This document shows, one piece after another, positions 1,252-37,111 of a stretch of DNA of 64,000 bases. The stretch is from an uncultured Lachnospiraceae bacterium (GTDB lineage: Bacteria; Bacillota; Clostridia; Lachnospirales; Lachnospiraceae). Position 1 is the first letter of the stretch; the number at the start of each line of letters is the position of its first letter. A program made the translations under genes and the position numbers. Location of the stretch: NCBI GenBank assembly GCA_902761225.1, contig CACWJQ010000002.1:33723-97722 (forward strand). The letters run 5' to 3'. Below the pieces are notes generated by a model. The model did not search any database. It was not told the DNA's origin and was given only the letters and a program-made list of their open reading frames with translations.

Positions 1252-1292
1252 TATGACAGATGTGAAGATCTGATATTTTTAGCAGGTTTATT

Positions 1293-3512
1293 TTGAAGAT
1301 CAACGAACAAAAAGTAAAAAGCTTCATAGATTATTTCTCCTACTGCTTCATAATGTTCACCCTCATAATCTTTTTCATGGCTTTTGTGAAGACAGATCAC
1401 AAGGGAGAAGCTTACATCGGAACCTTTGATTCCGAATACTTTAATTCCGGCTGGACTCTTGAAGCGGGCGGGGCGGTTTATGATGTGACTCTTCCGGTCA
1501 CTGCTGATGCCGGAAGGGATGAATGGATCATCATCAGAAACACTTTGCCTGAAGGGATTGAGGATCATGAGACCCTGATCTTCCGCACGATGATGGAAGA
1601 TGTTTATATCTATGTGGACGGTGAGCTGCGCTCAAGCTATTCTTCCGATGGATTTGATTCCATGAGCTATCATCTTCCCAGTGCATATGTTGCATGCGAT
1701 ATCGGCCCGGAAGATTCGGGGAAGGTCATTGAAGCAAGATTTCTTGTAAAATCCGTAGCCACCGTTGAGTCAGTCCGCATCGGTTCCGGTAATAATGCAT
1801 GGTTTTCCATAATACAGGAGAACATGCTTCTTCTTGCAACGGCCATGATGATCCTTATAACCGGTGTTGCGGTGATCCTTTTCTATCTCTTTTCCAGAGA
1901 ACGGTTCAGGATTGACAGGTCCTTTTTTTTTTTTTTTTTTTTTATGGTATCACTTTCCACCTGGATCATCAGTGAGAGCAGGCTCAGACAGCTGATCTTC
2001 GCAAGACCGTCTCTGTCCAATTATTTCACCTTCTTTGCCATAGAGATAACAGGGGTGTTCGTCTGCAGTTATTTCGATGAGATACAGGGCAGGGTATATC
2101 ACAGACTGTACCTGATCTTTGAAGCGCTTATCACACTGCAGATACTGGTTAATCTGGCGTGCGCAGCTTTTGGCATCGCTGACTTTTTCACCACTCTGCT
2201 CATAACCTATATCTGGATAGCTCTGGGCATCATTGCGGTGATATCCACCCTGGTCAGGGATGTCATTCAGAAGAGGATATATAATTATATTGCGATCTTT
2301 ATCGGAACCTGTGTATTCTTGGTCTGCTGCATAGTTGAGATAGCCACATTTTTCTTTTCAAATATATGGAGCTTCGGATTCTTCATATGTGTGGGAATTA
2401 TGGCGCTTCTTATCACCACCATCGTCCAAACGGCGCTCAGGCAGGAGAAGTACTCCATAGAGCGTGAGCATGAGAAGGAAGATTCACTTATGAACACCAT
2501 CGAAGCCATCACCGGAGCTATCGATGCCAAGGATGAATATACCGGTGGACATTCGGAGCGTGTGGGCCTGTATGCCGGGATGATCGCACGTGAGATGGCA
2601 GCGGATTATGATTTTTCCGAAGAGGACATTCTGAGGATCCGCTATATCGGATTCATGCATGACATAGGAAAAATAGGTGTTGCGGATACGGTTCTGAACA
2701 AAGCCGGCAGACTCAATGATGAAGAATTTTCGCTGATGAAAAAGCATGTGGAGATCGGATACGATCTGCTTAAGTCGATGGATAATACCATTGAGGGACT
2801 TCCTGAGGGTATCAGATATCATCATGAGAAGTTTGACGGAACGGGATATCCCGACGGGCTTGCGGGTACTGAGATACCGCTTGTTGCCCGTATCCTGTGT
2901 GTGGCGGACAGCTTTGACGCAATGACCTCGAACCGTGTCTACAGGAAGCGTCTTACAGATGAAGAGGTTATTGCTGAGATAAGGAGATGTTCGGGCAAGC
3001 AGTTTGACCCTGCAATAGCGGAGATCTTTACAAGGATGATAGAGCGCGGTGATTTTAAGGTTGCCACCGTTGACGGAATGGAGACCAACGAACAGGGCGT
3101 TGTCTACAGGTCCTCACTGCTGGAGAGACATCTCCAGATGGATATTAAGGCAGATCCAGACAGAGTCTTCCAGCCCTCCCATGTGAGGATGATATGTTAT
3201 GTCATGAAGCTTGCGGAGAAGAACGACAGACGCTTCGATGTATTTTTCGCGGGAGTATTGCCTGAAAAATGCGCGGTGAACGGAGATGACTGCAAAGAGC
3301 ATCGGCCCGGAAGGCATGGCGTTACCGGAGAGCTTGAGGAGGCTTTCGATGCCCATATCCGTAAAAATCTGGATATCCGTGATATTTCCATCGATTACGA
3401 TATCGAGAGCAATATAATCGTCCTTTTTGACCGTGACGAAAATGGAATGAAGAAGGTCAGGGACGAGATAAAACGCTTTGATGGCGGCAAAGTCTTTATC
3501 CGGGAACTGTAA
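1293..3512 (+). CDS. Membrane-anchored HD-GYP domain protein (probable cyclic-di-GMP phosphodiesterase)
   Basis: 739 residues from a TTG start with AGCAGG six bases upstream. There is a membrane anchor at about residues 13-32, an extracytoplasmic beta-rich domain to about 175, seven hydrophobic segments at about 178-385, and an HD-GYP domain at about 400-560. The HD pair is H456-D457 in HDIGKIG, and the GYP motif is at 518-520 within GTGYPDG. HD-GYP enzymes hydrolyse cyclic di-GMP or related cyclic dinucleotides at a metal centre in the cytoplasm. The last 170 or so residues form an unrecognised domain. An unbroken run of 21 T encodes seven Phe in a membrane segment (residues 211-217), a likely slippage site. 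A strong terminator follows. Confidence 0.88.
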   Translation: MKINEQKVKSFIDYFSYCFIMFTLIIFFMAFVKTDHKGEAYIGTFDSEYFNSGWTLEAGGAVYDVTLPVTADAGRDEWIIIRNTLPEGIEDHETLIFRTMMEDVYIYVDGELRSSYSSDGFDSMSYHLPSAYVACDIGPEDSGKVIEARFLVKSVATVESVRIGSGNNAWFSIIQENMLLLATAMMILITGVAVILFYLFSRERFRIDRSFFFFFFFMVSLSTWIISESRLRQLIFARPSLSNYFTFFAIEITGVFVCSYFDEIQGRVYHRLYLIFEALITLQILVNLACAAFGIADFFTTLLITYIWIALGIIAVISTLVRDVIQKRIYNYIAIFIGTCVFLVCCIVEIATFFFSNIWSFGFFICVGIMALLITTIVQTALRQEKYSIEREHEKEDSLMNTIEAITGAIDAKDEYTGGHSERVGLYAGMIAREMAADYDFSEEDILRIRYIGFMHDIGKIGVADTVLNKAGRLNDEEFSLMKKHVEIGYDLLKSMDNTIEGLPEGIRYHHEKFDGTGYPDGLAGTEIPLVARILCVADSFDAMTSNRVYRKRLTDEEVIAEIRRCSGKQFDPAIAEIFTRMIERGDFKVATVDGMETNEQGVVYRSSLLERHLQMDIKADPDRVFQPSHVRMICYVMKLAEKNDRRFDVFFAGVLPEKCAVNGDDCKEHRPGRHGVTGELEEAFDAHIRKNLDIRDISIDYDIESNIIVLFDRDENGMKKVRDEIKRFDGGKVFIREL
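1923..1943 (+). repeat. T21 homopolymer inside the HD-GYP gene
   Basis: Twenty-one consecutive T encode Phe 211-217 of the HD-GYP protein, in frame. Such runs gain or lose bases by replication slippage, and a one-base change would truncate the protein before its catalytic domain. It is by far the longest single-base run I noticed in the window. Confidence 0.9.
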
Positions 3513-17248: not shown

Positions 17249-17281
17249 TGTTAGAATCGTATGGCAATTTAACAAAGAAGG

Positions 17282-17482
17282 GTACATGGTGCCGATGGAG
17301 CTTATGCTCCTGACGTTAAAAGGGAAACAGGTCTGAGGCCTGTGCGAACTCGTCACCGTAGATACAAAATACACTTATCAAATGGTTTTTACCAGTCACT
17401 GAGAGATCGGGAAGACGATAAGCTTGTGTGTTGACGGATTTATCTTCGTCTGAATGTATGAGCCGGGAAACCTGCCATGTAT
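17282..17482 (+). promoter_or_regulatory. Cobalamin riboswitch aptamer
   Basis: Conserved blocks of the adenosylcobalamin aptamer are visible in order: TTAAAAGGGAAACAGG near 17326, a B12-box-like GCGAACTCGTCACCGT near 17344, CACTG followed by GGGAAG near 17397-17414, and AGCCGGGAAACCTGCC at 17461-17476. P1 closes by GTACATG (17282-17288) with CATGTAT (17476-17482). It precedes the B12 lipoprotein gene by about 150 bases and should repress the downstream operon when cobalamin is bound. Confidence 0.92.
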
Positions 17483-17510
17483 ATCGATACAGGATATGCA
17501 TCCGGATCAC

Positions 17511-17631: not shown

Positions 17632-18933
17632 ATGAAAAAGAAACTGTTGACTATCGTACTGGCAGTATCAATGACTGCTGCAATGCTTGGAGGATGCGGA
17701 AGCGAAGTTCCCACTGACGAGCCTGTTCAGGAAGAGACTGTACAGACTGCAGATCCTGCGGAGCCTGAGGCTCAGACAGAGCCTGCAGAGCCGGAGGTTC
17801 CGGAACTCAGTGATGAGGAGAAGGCACAGGAAGTTGCTGATCTCATTGATGCCATCTATGTTCAGGAATGGACTGAGGAGACCGATGCTCTCTGCGCAGA
17901 GGCCAAGGCTAAATGGGATGCGCTTACCGACGAGCAGAAGGAACTTGTTGAAGGCGAAGATGCGGATCCCGACTATTTCGGAAGAGATACAGGAGATGCT
18001 TCCAAGGACGATCCACTGAATGCCGATGGTATCGGAGAAAATGAGATCCTTGTTGTATCCTTTGGAACATCATTTAACGAAAGCCGTGCAAATGATATCG
18101 GCGGAGTTGAGAGGGCCATTGCAGAGGCTAATCCTGACTGGTCCGTCAGAAGAGCCTTCACTGCACAGATCATAATCAATCACGTTCTTGCAAGAGATGG
18201 TGAGAAGATCGACAATGTAGAGCAGGCCCTTCAGAGAGCTGTCGACAATGGTGTTAAGAACCTTGTTATCCAGCCCACTCATCTCATGCATGGTGCAGAG
18301 TATGATGAGCTTATGGACGTTGTTGACAGATATTGCGACAGCTTTGAGACTGTCAGAGTTGCAGAGCCTCTTCTTGGTTCTGTAGGAAGTGACGCAACCG
18401 TTATAAATGATGACAAGAAGGCCGTTGCGGAAGCAATCGTTGCAGAAAGCATTGAGATAGCCGGATTCGATACTCTTGAAGCTGCAGCTGAAGAAGGCGT
18501 TGCGTTTGTGTTCATGGGTCACGGTACCGCACACACCGCCAAGGTTTCCTACAGCCAGATGGCTACTCAGATGGATAACCTCGGATATGATAACGTATTC
18601 ATCGGAACCGTTGAGGGTGAACCTGAGGAGACTGCCTGCGAGAACATTATCGAGGCTGTTCATGAGGCAGGCTACAACACAGTTATCCTTCGTCCCCTTA
18701 TGGTGGTTGCCGGCGATCACGCCAACAATGATATGGCGGGAGATGAAGAGGATTCCTGGAAGAGCATGTTTGAAGCTTCGGGATATTTTGATTCCGTTGA
18801 CTGTCAGATTGAAGGCCTTGGAAGGATCGAAACGGTTCAGGAACTCTATGTTTCCCATACTGCAGAAGTGGTATCTACCGTTGATATCAAAACAGCATCA
18901 CTTGACGACGGGGAGTATGAGGTTTTTTTTTAA
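17632..18933 (+). CDS. cbiK: Lipoprotein cobaltochelatase (CbiK family)
   Basis: 433 residues. A signal peptide ends in a lipobox (LGGC, Cys22), so the protein should be anchored outside the membrane. A Pro/Glu-rich linker and a small helical stretch precede a CbiK domain from about residue 135. CbiK enzymes insert cobalt into sirohydrochlorin. Candidate metal or catalytic residues are His217 and His220 (PTHLMHG), His297 (MGHGTAH) and His363 (AGDHANND). The ATG at 17632 follows AGGAGGAG. It is the first gene behind the B12 riboswitch. The frame stops inside a T9 run, and the -1 frame continues a coherent domain, so the true product may be about 110 residues longer. An extracytoplasmic role in metal or tetrapyrrole handling is possible. 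Confidence 0.85.
   Translation: MKKKLLTIVLAVSMTAAMLGGCGSEVPTDEPVQEETVQTADPAEPEAQTEPAEPEVPELSDEEKAQEVADLIDAIYVQEWTEETDALCAEAKAKWDALTDEQKELVEGEDADPDYFGRDTGDASKDDPLNADGIGENEILVVSFGTSFNESRANDIGGVERAIAEANPDWSVRRAFTAQIIINHVLARDGEKIDNVEQALQRAVDNGVKNLVIQPTHLMHGAEYDELMDVVDRYCDSFETVRVAEPLLGSVGSDATVINDDKKAVAEAIVAESIEIAGFDTLEAAAEEGVAFVFMGHGTAHTAKVSYSQMATQMDNLGYDNVFIGTVEGEPEETACENIIEAVHEAGYNTVILRPLMVVAGDHANNDMAGDEEDSWKSMFEASGYFDSVDCQIEGLGRIETVQELYVSHTAEVVSTVDIKTASLDDGEYEVFF
18923..18931 (+). other. T9 slippery run at the end of cbiK, candidate -1 frameshift site
   Basis: The zero frame reads GAG GTT TTT TTT TAA. T TTT TTT at 18924-18930 is a perfect slippery heptamer: both Phe tRNAs re-pair after a one-base backward slip, and the stop codon follows directly. 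The shifted frame continues with TTA ACT GAC into the downstream open frame up to 19259. Transcriptional slippage, a real mutation or a base-calling error would look the same. Confidence 0.7.
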
Positions 18934-18944
18934 CTGACAGCTCT

Positions 18945-19259
18945 ATGTTTCGCATAAATGAAGAATACGATAATAGAGCTTTGCTTACAGTAGATAAAGG
19001 AGCGATGACGGTACATATCACACTTGGTTCCAGGAATATCGTGAATCTTTATCCCGGTCTCGCGGAGGATGCACAGAAGGACGGTGCCGTTCTCTTGCAG
19101 CCCACAGATGATGAGGTCACTTACAGCGACGGACTTACCGAGACGGTGAACGGATTTGATGTTCCCGTTCCTTATCTGGACAGGGAATTTGATCTTGCAC
19201 TCATAGGAACAAAGGGCGTCTGGTATGATCACAAGGTTACTGTTTCACTGGCAGATTGA
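18945..19259 (+). CDS. C-terminal surface domain, probably the frameshifted continuation of cbiK
   Basis: 104 residues from the first ATG, but the same frame is open back to 18930 and adds LTDSS before it. The join would read DGEYEVFF-LTDSSMFRINE, which looks like one continuous beta domain. From memory this resembles a domain at the end of surface iron or corrinoid proteins of gut Firmicutes, with IVNLYPGLAEDAQKD and KGVWYDHKV as landmarks. It has no signal peptide and no convincing ribosome site, so independent translation in the cytoplasm seems unlikely. Function is unknown; substrate binding outside the cell next to the chelatase is an inference. Confidence 0.6.
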   Translation: MFRINEEYDNRALLTVDKGAMTVHITLGSRNIVNLYPGLAEDAQKDGAVLLQPTDDEVTYSDGLTETVNGFDVPVPYLDREFDLALIGTKGVWYDHKVTVSLAD

Positions 19260-19262
19260 TCT

Positions 19263-20804
19263 ATGATATTAGGAAAAACACTTCAGAAGAAAATATCCAT
19301 ACTGTTTTCGCTGATAGCGGTACTATGCGTAACCTCCTGCGCTTCGCAGGGGGTTACCTTTGTTAATCAGACTAATGAAGAGAGTATTCCGCAGTCCGTA
19401 ATAGAGACTTATCAGGTGGATATCGGATTTGAAGGCGGCTCCGGGAAAGCATATATAGAGTCTCCGGTTAAAGTGACCTCAGTGGACGGAGATCTGACTG
19501 CCGTTTTTGTATGGAACAGTGTCAATTACGATTATATGATCGTTAACGGTATCAGATATGATAATGAGAATCCCGGCGGACCGTCAACCTTTACCGTGAG
19601 CATCGATAACATCACGGATCCCCTGACAGTCATAGGTGATACTGTTGCGATGAGCACACCGCATGAGATAGAGTATGTGATCACCTGGGGTGAAAAGACT
19701 CTTACTATGTCCGGGACGATATCAGGCTCGCAGGTTTCCGAAGGTGAGCTTTTTTCCGCACTTGAAAAAGCAGGTCTTTCGAAAACGGGCGAGATGATCC
19801 CTGAGTACTCCATCGGATACAGAGTTACGGATTTTGGAGATTACTCAGTCATATCTATAGATAATTCTGGAGAATATCTGCTGGTACCGGAAGGAGGAAG
19901 TGTTCCTGACGGATTGCCCCGGGGGGTGACAGTCCTGTGTAAACCTCTGGATAAAGCCTATCTTGTTTCCACCTCCGCCATGGATCTTGTGCTGGCCTGC
20001 GGAGCCCTTGACCGTATAGCTCTTTCCGGAACAAAGGCTTCCGACTGGTACATAGATGATGCAAGATGCGCCATGGAAAACGGTGATATCCTCTATGCGG
20101 GAAAATACAGAGCACCTGATTATGAGCTGCTCCTCAACACAGGATGTGACATTGCCATTGAAAATACCATGCTCTATCATGAACCTGCGGTGAAGGAAAA
20201 GCTTGAGGAACTGGGGATACCGGTTTTTATAGAAACTTCCAGTTATGAGAAGGAGCCTCTGGGAAGGCTGGAGTGGATAAGACTTTACGGTATCCTGTTT
20301 GATATGGAAGATGAAGCTGACAGATATTTTTATGATCAGCTGGACGCGCTTTCGGACATCCTGAGTGAAAAAACTGACACGGGCGTCAAAGTCGCTTTTT
20401 TCCATGTGACGGCAAACGGGACCGTAAATGTGCGCAGATCCGGTGATTATATCACCAGGATGATAGAGATATCCGGCGGACACTATGTACCGGAAAATGC
20501 AGGAGACGGCGAAAATGCACTTTCCACCATGAACATGCAGATGGAGGACTTTTACGTCGGGGCAAAGGATGCGGATATCCTGATCTATAATTCCACCATA
20601 GCAGGGGAGATCGGTTCCGTGGATGAACTCATAAGGCTGAATCCTCTGTTCGAAGATTTCAGGGCTGTGAGGGAAGGAAGAGTGTATTGCACCGAACAGA
20701 ATCTTTTCCAGCAGACCACGGGTATGGCGGATTTCATAAAGGATCTGAATGATATATTTAACGGCATCGACAGGGAATATACTTACATAAAGAGACTAAG
20801 CTGA
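19263..20804 (+). CDS. btuF: B12/iron-siderophore-type ABC transporter substrate-binding lipoprotein
   Basis: 513 residues. An N-terminal signal with lipobox VTSC (Cys26) predicts a surface lipoprotein. Residues about 45-160 form an extra beta domain (VDIGFEGGSGKAYIESP, NYDYMIVNG), of the kind found with surface metal or corrinoid proteins. Residues about 200-510 are a TroA/BtuF-like binding fold with two lobes (VLACGALDRIALSG; IENTMLYHEPAVKEKL). It should capture a corrinoid and deliver it to the permease encoded next. Plain BtuF proteins are near 300 residues, so the N-terminal extension is unusual. It starts three bases after the previous stop. Ligand is inferred from riboswitch and operon context. 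Confidence 0.82.
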   Translation: MILGKTLQKKISILFSLIAVLCVTSCASQGVTFVNQTNEESIPQSVIETYQVDIGFEGGSGKAYIESPVKVTSVDGDLTAVFVWNSVNYDYMIVNGIRYDNENPGGPSTFTVSIDNITDPLTVIGDTVAMSTPHEIEYVITWGEKTLTMSGTISGSQVSEGELFSALEKAGLSKTGEMIPEYSIGYRVTDFGDYSVISIDNSGEYLLVPEGGSVPDGLPRGVTVLCKPLDKAYLVSTSAMDLVLACGALDRIALSGTKASDWYIDDARCAMENGDILYAGKYRAPDYELLLNTGCDIAIENTMLYHEPAVKEKLEELGIPVFIETSSYEKEPLGRLEWIRLYGILFDMEDEADRYFYDQLDALSDILSEKTDTGVKVAFFHVTANGTVNVRRSGDYITRMIEISGGHYVPENAGDGENALSTMNMQMEDFYVGAKDADILIYNSTIAGEIGSVDELIRLNPLFEDFRAVREGRVYCTEQNLFQQTTGMADFIKDLNDIFNGIDREYTYIKRLS

Positions 20805-20811
20805 AGGGATC

Positions 20812-21816
20812 ATGACAAGGAAACGAATCATTATATTTTTTACAATATGCATACTGCTGCTCCTTTTGCTGTTTGCAGCTAATATTCTTCTGGGAAGCAC
20901 GGCTGTTTCCGTATCCGAGATCATGAGCATACTCGGAGGAAGGGAAGTTGGAACAAACGCTGTCATCATTCTGGGTATCAGACTTCCGAGGGCTGTATCG
21001 GCAGTGGTTCTTGGCGGTGCTCTGGCTCTGTCCGGATACCTTCTTCAGACGTTTTTCTCCAATCCGATAGTCGGACCCTATGTACTCGGGATATCCTCAG
21101 GAGCAAAGCTCTGTGTGGCGCTTATGATGATCTTCTTTCTTTCACGGGGAAGAAGCATAGGCCTGGCAGCGATGATCCTCTCTGCATTTATCGGATCCCT
21201 GATAGTCATGTCATTTGTGCTGGTCATCTCCGTTAAGGTCAGAAGCATGGGCATATTGGTGGTATGCGGCATAATGATAGGTTATATATGCTCCGCAGTG
21301 ACGGATTTTGTTGTGACCTTTGCGGATGATTCCAATATAGTCAATCTTCACAACTGGTCCATGGGCAGCCTGTCCGGTATCGGCTGGAGGGAAATAAGGG
21401 TGTTCACTGTAGTGATACTGCTGTGTGTTATCCTTGCCCTCTCTATCGTAAAGCCGATGAACGCATACAGGCTTGGCGAGAATTATGCAAGAAATGCCGG
21501 AGTGAACATCAGACTTCTGCGTGTGATACTTATACTTGTGTCGAGTCTGCTTGCGGCATGCGTTACGGCCTTTGCAGGTCCCATATCATTTGTGGGTATC
21601 GCAGTCCCGCACCTTGTCAGATCTTCGCTGAAAACCGACAGAGCAGGAGTGGTGATACCGGCGGCCTTTTTAGGAGGCGCAATGATCACTCTTTTCAGTG
21701 ATGCCATAGCAAGAACGGTATTTGCTCCCACGGAGGTAAGTATCAGTTCTGTTACGGCATTGCTTCTTGTTCCTGTTGTTATATATGTGATGATGAACAG
21801 AAAAAAGGATCGCTGA
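20812..21816 (+). CDS. btuC: B12-type ABC transporter permease (FecCD/BtuC family)
   Basis: 334 residues with about ten membrane helices, the standard size. Family motifs include LRLPR-like GIRLPRAVSAVVLGGALALSG near residue 60 and GPISFVGIAVPHLVR near 265, the latter contacting the ATPase. It would form the dimeric channel for corrinoid import, with the lipoprotein encoded before it and the ATPase domain encoded after it. The ATG follows AAGGGA. The next gene starts three bases after its stop. Confidence 0.92.
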   Translation: MTRKRIIIFFTICILLLLLLFAANILLGSTAVSVSEIMSILGGREVGTNAVIILGIRLPRAVSAVVLGGALALSGYLLQTFFSNPIVGPYVLGISSGAKLCVALMMIFFLSRGRSIGLAAMILSAFIGSLIVMSFVLVISVKVRSMGILVVCGIMIGYICSAVTDFVVTFADDSNIVNLHNWSMGSLSGIGWREIRVFTVVILLCVILALSIVKPMNAYRLGENYARNAGVNIRLLRVILILVSSLLAACVTAFAGPISFVGIAVPHLVRSSLKTDRAGVVIPAAFLGGAMITLFSDAIARTVFAPTEVSISSVTALLLVPVVIYVMMNRKKDR

Positions 21817-21819
21817 TAT

Positions 21820-24207
21820 ATGGCAGTATCTGACGGATTAAAAACAGAACATCTGAATATAGGCTATGACAGCGACCTTATCCGGGATATCTGTATTGAA
21901 GTGCTTCCCGGCAGGATCGTCACTCTCATAGGACCCAACGGTTCCGGCAAGACAACACTTCTTAAGACGCTCACGGGAGAACTTGCAGTAAGGGGCGGGA
22001 TCGTATATCTGGACGGAAAGGATAAGTCATGCATGTCTTCTTATGATGTTGCCAGGGCTCTGTCCATGGTCATGACCGAGAAGATAAGACCGGAGCTTAT
22101 GTCCTGCAGGGAGGTTGTGGAGGTCGGAAGATATCCCTATACCGGAAGGCTGGGACTCCTTAGTGACGAGGACAGGAAGAAGGTCTGTGATGCGATGGAG
22201 AAAACGGACATCACCTCGCTTGCAGACAGTTTCTTCACCGAACTTTCCGACGGACAGAAGCAGAGAGTGCTGCTGGCCAAGGCTCTTTGTCAGGAGCCGG
22301 AGGTCCTGATACTTGACGAGCCCACATCATTCCTTGACATAAGATACAAGATAGATCTTCTGGACAAGATCAGAAGCTTTGCAAAGGAAAAAAATATCGC
22401 GGTCCTCATGTCTCTTCATGAGCTTGATATCGCAAGAAAGATCTCTGATACAGTGGTTGCTGTCGGAGAGGGCAGGATACTTAAGGTCGGAAGCCCAAGG
22501 GAAGTGTGTTCCGAGAACTTCATCAGAAAGCTGTATTCCATAGAGGATGTGAACTCGGATCTGCTGGGAAGCGGTTACTGGGAAGATGAGCCTGATGCGG
22601 AAGGACATGGAGAAGCAAGTGATCAGGGATCATTCCGGGACGGAAATTCCGTAGCGGAGACCTGTAAAGAAGAGACATCCGATGCAGGATCTGTGATGAC
22701 GGGAGCTTCACCTGCGGATAAAGGCAGGAAAGCCCGGGTCATAATGATACAGGGTACCATGTCAAATGCCGGAAAGAGCCTTGTGGCTGCCGGACTTTGC
22801 CGGATCTTCTCCAATGACGGATTCTTGGTTGCCCCTTTTAAATCCCAAAATATGGCACTCAACTCATATATTACGGATGAAGGTCTCGAGATGGGAAGGG
22901 CACAGGTTGTACAGGCAGAGTGTGCAAGGATCAGACCGATGGCTGAGATGAATCCGATACTGCTGAAGCCTACATCATCCATGGGTTCCCAGGTGATCGT
23001 AAACGGCAGGGTCATAGGCAATATGAAAGCCATGGACTATTTTCGCCACAAGAAGGATTACATCCCGGAGATCATGGCGGCATACGACAGGCTTTCGGAG
23101 ATTGCCGATATCATAGTTGTTGAGGGCGCCGGTTCACCGGTGGAGCTGAATCTTAAGTCCGGGGATATAGTCAACATGGGACTTGCGGAGATGATAGATG
23201 CTCCCGTGCTCCTCGTGGGCGATATAGACAGGGGCGGTATATTCCCGCAGCTTTTGGGCACTCTCGATCTTCTTACGGAGGACGAGAGGAAGAGAGTAAA
23301 GGGTCTGATCGTCAACAAGTTCAGAGGTGACGGCAGACTGTTTGAAAGCGGGATCAGGATACTTGAAGACAGGGGCGGGGCTCCTGTTCTGGGTGTTGTT
23401 CCATATATGGATCTGAAGATCGATGATGAGGATTCTCTTTCGGACAGATTCTCCAATACGAGAGTGGGAGAATTTGACATTGCTGTCATAAAGCTGAGAG
23501 CCATTTCCAACTTCACTGATTTTGACACCTTTGACCAGATACCGGAAGTCTCCGTCAGATATATTGATGATCCTTCACGTCTGGGAGATCCGGATATCCT
23601 GATAATACCCGGTTCGAAAAATACCATAGGCGATCTTAGGGAACTAAAGAGCTCCGGCCTTTTCGATGCTATCATCAGGAAGGCAAAAGAGGGCACGGTC
23701 ATATTCGGCATCTGCGGAGGATACCAGATGCTGGGTGAGACGGTGGAAGACCCCGAATGCTCTGAGATCGGAGGAAGCGAAGAAGGGCTTGGACTTCTGC
23801 CGGTAAGAACCGTTATGGGAAATGACAAGGTCAGGAACATCTACAATGGCAAAATTTCAGGTGCCACCGGGGTGTTGTCAGGATCAAAGGGCCTGCCTGT
23901 CACGGGATACGAGATACATATGGGAGAAACTGTTCCCCTTAAGCCTCTGACGGAATTTACATCCGGAGGAACCGGATACTGTCTGGGTAATATCTACGGT
24001 ACCTATGTTCATGGATTTTTCGACGGAGGAGCGGTGCTTAAGAAGATAGCGGAAACAGTTGCCTTATCCCGCGGGAAAAGCATCACAACAGGTGCGGTGG
24101 AAGACTACAGAGACCGTAAGGAGACAGTATATGACAAACTTGCGGAGAATCTTAAAAACAGCCTTGATATGGATCGTATCTACAAAATACTCGGATTGGA
24201 AAGATGA
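21820..24207 (+). CDS. cobQ: Fusion of B12 importer ATPase (BtuD-like) and cobyric acid synthase (CobQ/CbiP)
   Basis: 795 residues in two enzymes. Residues 1-250 are an ABC ATPase: Walker A GPNGSGKTT near 38, signature LSDGQKQR near 142, Walker B VLILDEPTS near 163. A low-complexity linker of about 55 residues follows. Residues about 305-795 are CobQ: an ATP-binding QGTMSNAGKS near 311, and a glutamine amidotransferase with nucleophile Cys632 in FGICGGYQ and His731 in TYVHGFF. CobQ amidates adenosylcobyrinic a,c-diamide at b, d, e and g. The ATPase domain should power the BtuC channel encoded upstream. Each part is full length, so this looks like a working fusion, not an assembly error. The stop overlaps cobT by four bases. 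Confidence 0.93.
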   Translation: MAVSDGLKTEHLNIGYDSDLIRDICIEVLPGRIVTLIGPNGSGKTTLLKTLTGELAVRGGIVYLDGKDKSCMSSYDVARALSMVMTEKIRPELMSCREVVEVGRYPYTGRLGLLSDEDRKKVCDAMEKTDITSLADSFFTELSDGQKQRVLLAKALCQEPEVLILDEPTSFLDIRYKIDLLDKIRSFAKEKNIAVLMSLHELDIARKISDTVVAVGEGRILKVGSPREVCSENFIRKLYSIEDVNSDLLGSGYWEDEPDAEGHGEASDQGSFRDGNSVAETCKEETSDAGSVMTGASPADKGRKARVIMIQGTMSNAGKSLVAAGLCRIFSNDGFLVAPFKSQNMALNSYITDEGLEMGRAQVVQAECARIRPMAEMNPILLKPTSSMGSQVIVNGRVIGNMKAMDYFRHKKDYIPEIMAAYDRLSEIADIIVVEGAGSPVELNLKSGDIVNMGLAEMIDAPVLLVGDIDRGGIFPQLLGTLDLLTEDERKRVKGLIVNKFRGDGRLFESGIRILEDRGGAPVLGVVPYMDLKIDDEDSLSDRFSNTRVGEFDIAVIKLRAISNFTDFDTFDQIPEVSVRYIDDPSRLGDPDILIIPGSKNTIGDLRELKSSGLFDAIIRKAKEGTVIFGICGGYQMLGETVEDPECSEIGGSEEGLGLLPVRTVMGNDKVRNIYNGKISGATGVLSGSKGLPVTGYEIHMGETVPLKPLTEFTSGGTGYCLGNIYGTYVHGFFDGGAVLKKIAETVALSRGKSITTGAVEDYRDRKETVYDKLAENLKNSLDMDRIYKILGLER

Positions 24208-32943: not shown

Positions 32944-33678
32944 ATGGCTTCAGGCAGGATATATGTGGTGGGAATCGGCCCGGGTGATCCGGATGATATG
33001 ACTGTAAGGGCAGTGAAAACTCTTGAGAAAAGTGACATCATTGTCGGATATAAGACATACACTGATCTGGTCAGGAAATCCTTTCCCGGAAAGGAGTATT
33101 ACGAGAACGGAATGCGCGGTGAGGTGGAGAGATGCGAAAAATGTGTGGACTATGCTCTTGAGGGCAAAACAGTATCACTCATATGCAGCGGTGATTCCGG
33201 AGTCTACGGAATGGCATCGCCCCTTATAGAGACCGCTCTCAAGAGAAACTTTACGGATATCGAGGTCATACCCGGAGTTACCGCGGCACTCAGCGGAAGT
33301 GCTGTCCTTGGGGCTGCGGTCTCACACGATTTCTGTGTCATAAGTCTCAGTGATCTTCTCACTCCATGGGAAATGATAGAAAAGCGACTGATCAAAGCTG
33401 CGGAGGGAGATCTCTGCATAGCCATATATAATCCCGCCAGCAGAAACAGGCCGGACCACCTGAAGAAGGCATGCAGCATCCTGCTTTCGGTCCTGTCTCC
33501 GGATACTTCATGCGGATATGTGAGGAACATCGGAAGAGATGGCATGGAGAAGAAACTCTGCACTCTGGCTGAACTGGCAGATGAGGAAGCCGATATGTTC
33601 GTGACAGTATTTATCGGCAACTCAAGGACACGTATAGCGGACGATATGCTCATAACACCGAGAGGATACGATATATGA
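32944..33678 (+). CDS. cbiH: Cobalt-precorrin-3 C17-methyltransferase (CbiH)
   Basis: 244 residues, tetrapyrrole methylase fold. It methylates C17 and drives ring contraction. Motifs: YVVGIGPGDPDDMT at the N-terminus, GYKTYTDLV near residue 34, CSGDSGVYGMA near 80, and IYNPASRNRPDHL near 160, the last typical of the CobJ/CbiH group. The ATG at 32944 with GGGGAG seven bases upstream is preferred; an in-frame ATG at 32890 would add 18 residues unlike the family. It overlaps the next gene by four bases. Confidence 0.93.
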   Translation: MASGRIYVVGIGPGDPDDMTVRAVKTLEKSDIIVGYKTYTDLVRKSFPGKEYYENGMRGEVERCEKCVDYALEGKTVSLICSGDSGVYGMASPLIETALKRNFTDIEVIPGVTAALSGSAVLGAAVSHDFCVISLSDLLTPWEMIEKRLIKAAEGDLCIAIYNPASRNRPDHLKKACSILLSVLSPDTSCGYVRNIGRDGMEKKLCTLAELADEEADMFVTVFIGNSRTRIADDMLITPRGYDI

Positions 33679-35663
33679 CTGAATGCATTATTTTCTCCGG
33701 AACAACAGAAGGAAGGATCATTTCAGATGCTTTATCAGTACATGGGATAAAGCATATTGTCTGCGTTGCGGGAACATACGGTGAGGAGATGATGAAGGAG
33801 GATGCCGGACGTACTGTTCATGTGGGCAGGATGGATGAGCCGCAGATGGAGGAGTTCTTCAGATCCTGCGGTTTGGCTAAAGACGCTGTCATCATTGATG
33901 CTACCCATCCCTATGCTTCTGAAGTTACTGCCAACATAAAGGCCTCATGCGAACAATGCGGGCTGAAATATGTAAGGGTTGTCCGCTCGGGTGATGAAGA
34001 CTGTGCCGCAGGCTTTCCGAGATATGCAAATGCGGAGGATGCGGCAAGAGCCCTTGATAAGACTGATTCGAACATACTGCTCACTACGGGAAGCAAGGAG
34101 CTGGGGGTATATTCGGCAAACGTATCTCCGGAGGTTCTCTCAAGGACATATGTCAGGGTGCTGCCTTCCGAAGAGAGTCTTAAGATCTGTGAAGAATGCG
34201 GGATAGAAAGATCCCATATAATAGCGATGCACGGACCGTTTTCCAGGGAAATGAACGCTGCCACCATCAGGCAGTTTTCCATAGGACACCTCCTGACCAA
34301 GGAGAGCGGTGCTGCAGGAGGGTTTGAAGAGAAGATACTGGCAGCACGTGATGAGGGTATCATTGCACATATCATAGAAAGACCCTCCGAAGAGGAGGGC
34401 ATCAGCGCACAGGCTGCCATATCAATGATGATAAGCAGTACAGACCCCGTTATGAAGATCACCATCGCCGGAATTGGTATGGGAAATGTTTCTTCCATGA
34501 CGGCTGAAGTGCGTGAGGCTATAAATGACGCAGATGTCATATTCGGGGCGGAGCGCCTTATTGAAGGTATCGTGGATAAAAAGACTTATCCTCTGTATCT
34601 TGCAGGAGATATACTGCCGGTCCTTGAATCTGAAAATCCTCTCAGGCCGGTCATATTGTTTTCCGGTGATACGGGCTTTTACAGCGGTGCACGCAGGATG
34701 ATCGCAGCACTGAATGAATGGAGGAAGGATGCAGACATAAGAGTTCTTCCGGGCATCTCTTCGGTTTCCTATCTGGCATCAAGACTTGGCATATCCTATG
34801 AAAGAGCGGTTCTGACTTCTCTTCATGGGAAAAATGATGATAAGAACATATCCGGACTGATACATAAGCTTAAGTACACCCCCGAAGTATTCACTCTTTT
34901 ATCAGGCGGCTCCGATGTGAGGAGGATTGCTGCCGCGATGAAGGATGCGGGCATAGACGGACTGATATACGCAGGAGTGGATCTTTCCTACGAAGATGAG
35001 AGGATAGTGACCATGACTCCAGATGAAGCACTCGTCTCCGAATACTCCGGTATGGTTACCGCGTATATCACAAACAATGCTCCCAAGGCAAGGCCTCTTA
35101 TCCCTGTTATCAGGGACTGCGATATGATAAGAGGGGATGTTCCCATGACCAAGGAATGCATCCGTCACGAGAGCATTATAAGGCTCGGACTCTGTGAGGG
35201 AGAGGTTATGTATGATGTGGGCGGAGGGACCGGTTCCGTATCCATAGAAGCTGCATCACTGTCACCGGAACTGAAAGTATACGTCATCGAGAGAAAAGCT
35301 GAAGCGGTGGACCTTATCAGGGAGAATATCAAAAAGGCCGGGCTGGGTAATATAGAGGTTGTGGAAGGGGAGGCACCCGATGCCTTCGAGGGACTTCCCT
35401 CACCTGACAGAGTCTTTATCGGCGGAAGCGGCGGAAGACTATCTGAGATCATCGGGACTCTTTCAGGCAGAAAAAAGGGTATCACCTATGTCATCAATGC
35501 GGTCAGTCTTGAGACCTGTGATGAGGTAAGAAAGCTGTTTTCGGAATACGGAATACAGGATGAGGAGATACTGCAGATTTCTGTCACGGGTGTCAGAAAA
35601 GCGGGAGAACATCACCTGATGAACGCACAGAATCCGGTGTGGATATTTACTTTTAAGTTATGA
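33675..35663 (+). CDS. cbiJ: CbiJ-CbiE-CbiT fusion: precorrin-6A reductase plus C5,15-methyltransferase and C12-decarboxylase
   Basis: 662 residues holding three pathway enzymes. Residues 1-250 are CbiJ/CobK (IFSGTTEGR, DATHPYASEVTANI, TTGSKEL), which reduces cobalt-precorrin-6A. Residues about 260-460 are CbiE, a tetrapyrrole methylase (GIGMGNVSSMT, FSGDTGFYSGAR, PGISSVSYLASRLG). Residues about 472-662 are CbiT (GDVPMTKECIRHESI, the SAM-binding YDVGGGTGSVSIEAA, IGGSGG). Together they run cobalt-precorrin-6A to -8. CbiE-CbiT fusions (CobL-like) are known; adding CbiJ at the front is less usual. Four-base overlaps join it to cbiH and cbiA. Confidence 0.93.
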   Translation: MTECIIFSGTTEGRIISDALSVHGIKHIVCVAGTYGEEMMKEDAGRTVHVGRMDEPQMEEFFRSCGLAKDAVIIDATHPYASEVTANIKASCEQCGLKYVRVVRSGDEDCAAGFPRYANAEDAARALDKTDSNILLTTGSKELGVYSANVSPEVLSRTYVRVLPSEESLKICEECGIERSHIIAMHGPFSREMNAATIRQFSIGHLLTKESGAAGGFEEKILAARDEGIIAHIIERPSEEEGISAQAAISMMISSTDPVMKITIAGIGMGNVSSMTAEVREAINDADVIFGAERLIEGIVDKKTYPLYLAGDILPVLESENPLRPVILFSGDTGFYSGARRMIAALNEWRKDADIRVLPGISSVSYLASRLGISYERAVLTSLHGKNDDKNISGLIHKLKYTPEVFTLLSGGSDVRRIAAAMKDAGIDGLIYAGVDLSYEDERIVTMTPDEALVSEYSGMVTAYITNNAPKARPLIPVIRDCDMIRGDVPMTKECIRHESIIRLGLCEGEVMYDVGGGTGSVSIEAASLSPELKVYVIERKAEAVDLIRENIKKAGLGNIEVVEGEAPDAFEGLPSPDRVFIGGSGGRLSEIIGTLSGRKKGITYVINAVSLETCDEVRKLFSEYGIQDEEILQISVTGVRKAGEHHLMNAQNPVWIFTFKL

Positions 35664-37111
35664 TGAAAAAGAGTTCATGTAAAGAGATAAACAGGATAAT
35701 GATCGCGGGAATGACAAGCGGCAGCGGAAAGACCACTCTCACCTGTGCATTTCTGAGATGTCTTCAGAAAAGAGGTCTGGATCCAAGATCCTTCAAATGC
35801 GGTCCCGATTATATCGATCCCATGTTCCACGGCAAGGTGCTGGGGATAGAGAGCAGGAACCTCGATATGTTCTTCATGGGAGAGGAGAGGCTGAGAAAGA
35901 CGCTTTCGAAGGCTGAAGGGGGATATGCGGTGATCGAAGGAGTCATGGGAGTGTATGACGGAAACGATCCTTCTTCTGCAGCGGGTTCATGTTATGAGGT
36001 CGCAGCTGTAACCTCAACACCCATTGTTCTCACAGTAAATGCCGGCGGGGTGGGCAGGACTGTTATCTCCATGATCATGGGGGTGCTGTCGGATGATGTG
36101 CATTCCCTGATAAAAGGGATCATCCTGAACAATATGTCCGGCGGATATTACAAAATGCTCCTTCCGGAACTGGAAAAGAGCATTGGCGGGATAAGGCCTG
36201 ATGTAAAGATACTGGGGGCGTTCCCAAAGACTAAGGGTATTGATTTTGAGAGCAGGCATCTGGGACTTAAGCTCCCCGGGGAATCGGATGATACACTTGG
36301 CAGGATCGAATACGCTGCTGAAGTGTTTGATGAAAATATCGATGTTGATGCCATGATCGGCCTGATGCGAAGTGCTCCGGATATCACTGTCCCAAACATG
36401 ACGGATACTTATGAAAATGCATCCGCAGTATGCAGTGGTACCCTTTCCGATCCGGGTTTTTCCGGCACAGACCTTACACTTGCCGTGGCGCTTGATGATG
36501 CATTCTGTTTTTATTACCGTGATAATATAGAGATGTTTGAGGAAAGAGGAGTTAAGGTTAAATATTTTTCTCCCCTTGATGATGAGTGCGTTCCGGAGGA
36601 TGCTGACGGTATTCTGATCGGAGGAGGATATCCGGAACTGTATCTTGACAGACTGTGTGCCAATAAGTCCATGATGACATCCCTGAAGGAATTGATATGC
36701 AGTGGAATCCCATCGCTTGCAGAGTGCGGTGGTTTCATGTACCTTGGAAGGGCTGTGGAGGATGCTGATGGGAAGGTGTATGAGACTGTGGGAGCCTATG
36801 AAGGCATAAGTAAGTTTACCGGACGAAGCGTGAGATTCGGGTATATGCTGATCCTGGATGCGGATGTGCCTGACAGTCTCGTAAAGTGCATGAAGGGACT
36901 TAAGGGGCACGAATTTCATTATTACGATTCTGATATGAACGGTGATGCCTGTACCGCCAAAAAGCCCTTCAGGGATACACAGTGGAAATGCATCATAGAT
37001 CAGAACAACGGCATCTGGGGATTTCCGCATTTCTATTACGGATCCGCACCTGCATTTGTTGACGCTTTTATTGTGAGGATGAGAGAGGTCAGGGATGGAA
37101 AATTCAAGTAA
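35660..37111 (+). CDS. cbiA: Cobyrinic acid a,c-diamide synthase (CbiA)
   Basis: 483 residues. It uses glutamine and ATP to amidate the a and c side chains of cobyrinic acid. The N-terminal ATP site is AGMTSGSGKTTL near residue 16, followed by KCGPDYIDPMFH and EGVMGVYDG. The C-terminal glutamine amidotransferase has Cys356 in LAECGGFMYLG and the later GHEFHYYDSD. ATG codons at 35660 and 35663 are both possible; the first overlaps the previous stop. The end overlaps the Cys-rich gene by 17 bases. Confidence 0.95.
   Translation: MMKKSSCKEINRIMIAGMTSGSGKTTLTCAFLRCLQKRGLDPRSFKCGPDYIDPMFHGKVLGIESRNLDMFFMGEERLRKTLSKAEGGYAVIEGVMGVYDGNDPSSAAGSCYEVAAVTSTPIVLTVNAGGVGRTVISMIMGVLSDDVHSLIKGIILNNMSGGYYKMLLPELEKSIGGIRPDVKILGAFPKTKGIDFESRHLGLKLPGESDDTLGRIEYAAEVFDENIDVDAMIGLMRSAPDITVPNMTDTYENASAVCSGTLSDPGFSGTDLTLAVALDDAFCFYYRDNIEMFEERGVKVKYFSPLDDECVPEDADGILIGGGYPELYLDRLCANKSMMTSLKELICSGIPSLAECGGFMYLGRAVEDADGKVYETVGAYEGISKFTGRSVRFGYMLILDADVPDSLVKCMKGLKGHEFHYYDSDMNGDACTAKKPFRDTQWKCIIDQNNGIWGFPHFYYGSAPAFVDAFIVRMREVRDGKFK

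Follow-up and report, generated by a model that had tools for sequence, protein, structure and literature searches.

A gene for a CbiK-type lipoprotein in an uncultured Lachnospiraceae bacterium stops inside a run of nine T and is continued by an open frame in the −1 phase, which raises the question of whether the locus is one gene broken into two pieces or one gene that makes two proteins. It lies in a 64,000-nt stretch of DNA (hereafter the window) from a 2.70-Mb draft genome of 106 contigs, and the features from the riboswitch to the ABC-CobQ gene described here are on the forward (+) strand. A cobalamin riboswitch (17270–17493; Rfam RF00174, 68.5 bits, E 8.6e-15) is found upstream of the operon, and the CbiK-type (class II cobaltochelatase) lipoprotein, encoded at 17632–18933, has a zero-frame product of 433 aa (Pfam CbiK E 2.2e-71) with a lipobox, LGGC, in its translation. 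The same operon encodes a substrate-binding protein with its own signal sequence in the translation (Peripla_BP_2, 19263–20804; Pfam PF01497, E 1.5e-28), a FecCD permease (20812–21816; PF01032, E 1.1e-74), and an ABC ATPase fused to the cobyric acid synthase CobQ (21820–24207; Pfam and NCBIfam). Ten further frames were scanned, up to position 37111, and among them are CobT, CobU-like, CobS-like, CobC-like, CbiB, CobD-like, CbiD, CbiG-like, a CbiJ-CbiE-CbiT fusion, and CobB/CbiA, where “-like” marks a name whose curated cut-off was missed. Two of the genes in this B12 cluster are fusions, the ABC ATPase–CobQ gene and the CbiJ-CbiE-CbiT gene (33675–35663).

Read in the zero frame, the CbiK gene ends GTT TTT TTT TAA. 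The T9 run occupies 18923–18931 and contains the slippery heptamer T_TTT_TTT (18924–18930) in the correct zero-frame phase, in keeping with the X_XXY_YYZ pattern of −1 ribosomal signals, and the zero-frame stop TAA (18931–18933) lies directly 3′ of it. The run also has the length, about nine or more A or T at the frame change, expected for transcriptional slippage. A Shine-Dalgarno-like GGGGAG (18910–18915) precedes the heptamer by 8 nt (its GGAG precedes the run by 7 nt), and may be merely the codons of a conserved DGE. Counted from 18930, the −1 frame adds 109 residues (18930–19259), for a fused product of 433 + 109 = 542 residues. Neither a lipobox nor a hydrophobic stretch of 10 was found in this downstream frame, and none of its start codons comes before the conserved Met of a TDSSMF motif. 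The original prediction had placed the end of the frame at the T run, counted 109 extra residues and a fused length of about 542, and seen no downstream signal peptide, all of which is borne out; the stem-loop, the recurrence in other genera, and the homologues with the C-terminal domain in a separate lipoprotein gene were beyond a reading of this single sequence.

A run of this kind is seldom met by chance. The 2.70-Mb genome contains five distinct A/T runs of at least nine (19 overlapping matches), the T9 included, and the window contains two homopolymers of at least eight, the T9 and a T21. The T21 run (1923–1943), another of the genome’s five, falls within an open frame of 748 codons (1266–3512), which reads through it as seven Phe codons, and is a further candidate for slippage or phase variation. 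The protein of that frame contains HDIGKIGV, a putative HD-GYP-type motif.

Both parts of the gene were compared with known families and structures. The first part belongs to the CbiK family (PF06180, 240.7 bits against a cut-off of 26.2), and the NCBIfam SiroCoChCbiK equivalog cut-off is missed (187.3 against 400). It resembles FetB, a CbiK-type heme-binding protein and the best match among solved sequences (9b86, E 4.7e-39); CbiK (1qgo) and a putative chelatase (2xvx) are also among its closest solved proteins. We know of no frameshift or C-domain in FetB. Judging from its name, 9b86 would be the Porphyromonas gingivalis FetB that a review describes as a chelatase exchanging porphyrin metals (PMC13402209, in part). 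The C-domain of the window has no Pfam match of its own, and in relatives the NEAT cut-off is missed (L069, E 0.19, 12.6 bits; L249, E 4.1e-4, 21.2 bits against 32.8; no match in L254), so that it can be called NEAT-like only, perhaps a divergent member. A PDB search with the C-domain profile returned only chance-level galectin matches, and a role in capturing a tetrapyrrole or a metal would be a guess.

The gene was found in eight of 31 genomes of the genus (E up to 1e-40). It is split at a T9 in G000, G026, and G011, an intact single frame in G007 and G028, and present as separate genes in G018, G022, and G025. The T9 species group together as a clade (support 94) to which G028 and, further out, G007 are external, and the CbiK proteins of the three are 85–92% identical. 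Among these three, dN/dS for the out-of-frame C-domain is 0.038–0.075 (dS 1.08–1.36), and that for the CbiK part is 0.042–0.051 (dS 0.67–1.67); the new frame is under selection, as expected for a −1 ribosomal signal. The intact gene of G028 has T_TTT_TTA in the zero-frame phase, and one codon further on lies a stop in the −1 frame; slippage at this site, if it happens, could yield the same pair of products with default and shifted form exchanged.

In −1 ribosomal signals, a 3′ stem-loop or pseudoknot lies about 5–9 nt downstream. Here, an 8-bp stem formed by AGCTCTAT (5′ arm, 18939–18946) and ATAGAGCT (3′ arm, 18973–18980) follows the heptamer after an 8-nt spacer in four of the five species of the genus compared. 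Its outer arms are identical in the four species with a T run (G000, G026, G011, and G028), a conservation that recombination may inflate, since part of the region does not differ between G026 and G028. As the outer stem never varies, covariation cannot test it. No such stem was found in G007, which has no T run. The inner stem has five pairs, of which a single one carries a compensatory change; another has changed on one side only, and a third is disrupted in one species. The four T-run species use the very same codons for FLTDSSM and for NRA, compared with 31% identical codons among the 89 countable in the domain. Across 2000 synonymous randomizations, a stem of the observed length or longer arose in 6% of cases for G000, 2.75% for G011, 0.9% for G028, 0.55% for G026, and 97% for G007. 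In the window alone the stem fold is unexceptional (z −1.2; z −0.02 over 151 nt), and folds beginning 5 nt after the run give z −2.0 for 50 nt and z −0.9 for 80 nt; because these single-sequence statistics are weak, the case for the stem-loop rests on its conservation.

A wider family survey was built from searches of relatives, the genus, the family, and the Treponema group, along with a scan of public genomes. The family search covered a drawn sample of 397 genomes, of which 208 had a match, and loci were read from 30 + 60 regions, the rest being weaker matches; the Treponema-group search matched 48 of 196 genomes, with 30 loci read, and the public-genome scan contributed the best 80 of 586 relatives. 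From 270 loci, 34 were dropped (<55% identity, <250 aligned residues, or no CbiK match), and the remaining 236 were collapsed at 97% to 182 distinct loci. In 81 of these, the C-domain is encoded downstream by a gene of its own that has a lipobox-type signal, as assigned by lipobox pattern and distance with sequences inspected for part of the 81. The two parts are fused in 62, separated by a frameshift in 18, and “split, other” in three, while 17 loci have no C-domain found and one has no anchor. The intact fused homologues proposed as a check in the original prediction are therefore present; 60 of the 62 lack a junction run of at least nine, and two carry such a run in frame (L061, A9; L243, A11). 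The loci labelled “split, other” (L127, L202, and L206) were rejected as frameshift splits, their downstream parts being read as separate genes with signal peptides of their own.

All 18 frameshift splits occur on an A/T run of 9–10 at the junction of CbiK and C-domain. Across the 80 fused or split loci, runs of at least nine number 20 in 7,602 nt of junction, none in 92,643 nt of CbiK, and four in 35,277 nt of C-domain (Fisher test of junction vs. CbiK, 4e-23 with all loci and 1e-8 counting only seven as independent). One of the four C-domain runs lies in frame inside the domain (L147) and three lie right before the C-domain stop (L059, L103, and L248). In the 81 separate-gene loci, the 97,950 nt of CbiK frames contain two runs of this length, each located at the start codon. 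Fifteen splits shift by −1 and three by +1 (L077, L246, and L247); the direction is therefore not restricted to −1 among homologues, as expected for transcriptional slippage, and in two further loci the run is in frame. A lipobox was found in none of the 18 downstream frames, nor was a hydrophobic stretch near their beginning (L067, L252, and L254 have one far inside), and in 16 of the 18 no start codon precedes the conserved Met. CbiK identity among the 18 splits is 67–92%, or 61–94% when L061, L242, L243, L255, and L256 are added; L242 is an in-frame version with an A8.

Long runs differ in frequency among the host genomes. The Kineothrix genome that carries L056 (G244) likewise has five A/T runs of at least nine, one of them at this junction. 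The Treponema-group genome G465 is richer in long runs (178 overlapping matches over 3.2 Mb), which weighs against the reading of programmed slippage. The 62 fused loci were also scanned for strong heptamers with a −1 stop nearby, which gave seven in 7,623 nt of junction, seven in 72,591 nt of CbiK, and 24 in 23,898 nt of C-domain; as their density at the junction exceeds that in CbiK but not that in the C-domain, ribosomal heptamers are not junction-specific in fused loci.

Six of the 18 splits are in Bacillota, comprising the three T9 species, L056 (Kineothrix, A10), L077 (Butyrivibrio, A10), and L166 (A9, from the same family as the window). The other 12 are in the spirochaete set, comprising L067 (a Spirochaetaceae record), L103 (an uncultured Treponema record), and L245–L254 (same genus as L103). 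On a tree of 179 rows the split label requires eight changes, at least seven of them forced by starred branches, where the tree was built by a quick method with 89 of its 176 inner branches open and with L255 and L256 absent owing to short matches. In the CbiK tree, spirochaete-group genes nest among Lachnospiraceae in two places (L254 in one, other loci of the group in the other), which suggests horizontal transfer.

In some loci the shifted frame leads into other modules. In L255 (from 2407) and L256 (from 2410), two further loci of the spirochaete group, an A9 follows CbiK and the −1 frame runs directly into an ABC substrate-binding protein, with no own signal sequence visible at its opening; both are counted among the 17 loci without a C-domain found, though frameshifted at A9. 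In L249 and L254, the −1 frame covers both the C-domain and the binding protein. Second slippery runs of A9–A10 occur right before the C-domain stop in L059 (6583–6592), L103 (6526–6534), and L248 (2930–2938), and an out-of-frame NEAT-like domain comes next.

These comparisons make programmed frameshifting a highly probable explanation, by which one gene would yield two lipoproteins, a 433-aa CbiK-type short form and a 542-aa form with the NEAT-like C-domain, with ribosomal slippage favoured at this locus and polymerase slippage in the relatives with A runs. The proposal that a programmed or transcriptional slip makes one longer lipoprotein is accordingly much strengthened by the intact fused homologues, the T9 in three species, and the purifying selection downstream.

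The alternative that survives best concerns the route and leaves the two products as they are, namely that RNA polymerase alone adds or drops bases at the T9, as in Shigella mxiE, and that the stem-loop is incidental. The presence of a run of at least nine in every split, the occurrence of both shift directions, and the in-frame runs of L061 and L243 speak for it, and a large share of genomes show selection against slippage at a length of nine (PMC1088944, in part). A consistent RNA structure just downstream was not found in the A-run loci (mean z −1.05 over 50 nt and −1.43 over 80 nt, in 22 loci that include the three T9 loci). Single strong folds do occur, in L246 (z −4.0), which shifts the other way, and in L249, L250, L254, L255, and L256 (z −2.3 or lower at 80 nt), so that these loci may have a downstream structure. 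Together, the constant length of at least nine, the two directions, and the lack of consistent structure favour polymerase slippage in the A-run lineages. In the genus of the window, however, the stem-loop accompanies the T run in four of five species with its codons frozen, and to our knowledge polymerase slippage does not need such a stem-loop. We therefore regard slippage by polymerase alone at the T9 as a serious possibility, if not a probable one.

Phase variation, in which replication slippage in the run would toggle the long form between cells, is judged less likely and is on balance improbable. A homopolymer within a surface-type protein gene is what it would predict, and the run differs in length and frame between species (A9, A10, A11, and T9). 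Against this, exactly T9 is kept in the same frame in three species despite high synonymous divergence, and only two of the 20 loci with a junction run of at least nine are in frame, compared with one third expected, a count weakened by common descent.

Separate synthesis of the C-domain by re-initiation at the ATG at 18945 is very unlikely, even though this codon lies only 11 nt from the TAA. The Met at 18945 belongs to the TDSSMF motif and does not vary across 23 aligned sequences, start codons lie at or after it in 16 of the 18 splits, and the product would be without the first part of the domain and without an export signal, whereas elsewhere the domain is either a separate gene with a lipobox-type signal (81 of 182) or fused (62 of 182).

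Finally, a sequencing or assembly error, the simple alternative offered by the original prediction and one to which homopolymers in a draft genome are prone, is excluded in practice together with gene decay, as the identical T9 and split recur in separate genomes of three species and a dN/dS this low 3′ of the stop fits neither an error nor a decaying tail.

Under programmed frameshifting, the majority of ribosomes would end at the TAA and release the lipid-anchored CbiK-type chelatase of 433 aa, and a fraction of decoding events would slip by −1 at the T run and produce the 542-aa form, which would carry the C-terminal NEAT-like domain on the same lipid anchor. The signal in the window most likely acts on the ribosome, given the heptamer T_TTT_TTT, the immediate stop, the 8-nt spacer, and the conserved stem-loop, although RNA polymerase slippage on the T9 may contribute or be the main route. 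In the A9–A10 relatives RNA polymerase slippage would be the likelier route, and in some of them the shift would add further modules beyond the C-domain. As a guess, the long form would supply the chelatase with captured tetrapyrrole or metal, a help that the short form would do without. What the sequences show is the conservation, the selection on the new frame, the conserved stem-loop, and the recurrence at the junction, whereas the occurrence of the shift, its level, and the role of each product are inferences.

Several known systems share parts of this arrangement. The frameshift of E. coli copA gives a short and a long form of a metal-handling protein, a P-type ATPase, and shortens the product; the present gene is likewise a metal-handling gene with two product lengths, but here the shift lengthens the product. 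Frameshift genes of the chlD type encode subunits of multi-subunit chelatases, unlike the single-subunit CbiK on a lipid anchor. Like the present gene, the magnesium-chelatase/chlD genes are chelatase genes whose two reading frames overlap; they have an A_AAA_AAR site, and tests measured as much as 63% frameshifting (PMC5009743 and PMC3711429, each in part), and chelatase-gene frameshifting has been linked to cobalamin (PMC9227772, in part); “CbiK” goes unmentioned in PMC9227772 and in the first part of PMC5009743. In dnaX, ribosomal frameshifting in E. coli is matched by transcriptional slippage at an A9 in Thermus thermophilus, and the CbiK genes resemble it in having two length variants, ribosomal or polymerase slippage among homologues, and a run with a nearby stop (PMC1088944, in part). 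The likeness is closest for the fused-by-default form of G028; unlike dnaX, the protein is an unrelated lipoprotein in a B12 operon, and in the split members termination is the default, so that the long form requires the shift. For mxiE we know of no 3′ stem-loop, and its product, unlike the one here, is a transcription activator. Its shared features are two overlapping frames and a longer product that needs a shift, which occurs by transcriptional slippage on a U run (PMC1088944, in part). A search of the open-access literature found no paper on a CbiK frameshift, which is not proof of absence, and nothing on CbiK with a NEAT domain or on transcriptional slippage with Treponema.

More broadly, we lean towards the view that the CbiK lipoproteins of Lachnospiraceae and Treponema-type spirochaetes are a family in which slippery junction runs have evolved repeatedly, with the polymerase or the ribosome as the route according to lineage. 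One lipid anchor would then dose a ladder of products (the chelatase alone, with the C-domain, with a NEAT-like domain as well, or with an ABC substrate-binding protein), and default and shifted product would have been swapped at least once. We know of few examples of programmed slippage in ordinary bacterial cellular genes. Within this one family the site is present in many members and absent from others, appears to have been gained independently several times, occurs in both polarities, and is sometimes doubled within a gene. Such variety is a natural setting in which to test what selects for slippage and how polymerase and ribosome routes replace one another. Routine annotation would read such genes as two broken pieces, whereas the present reading suggests that a cobalamin operon encodes a lipid-anchored chelatase in two forms.
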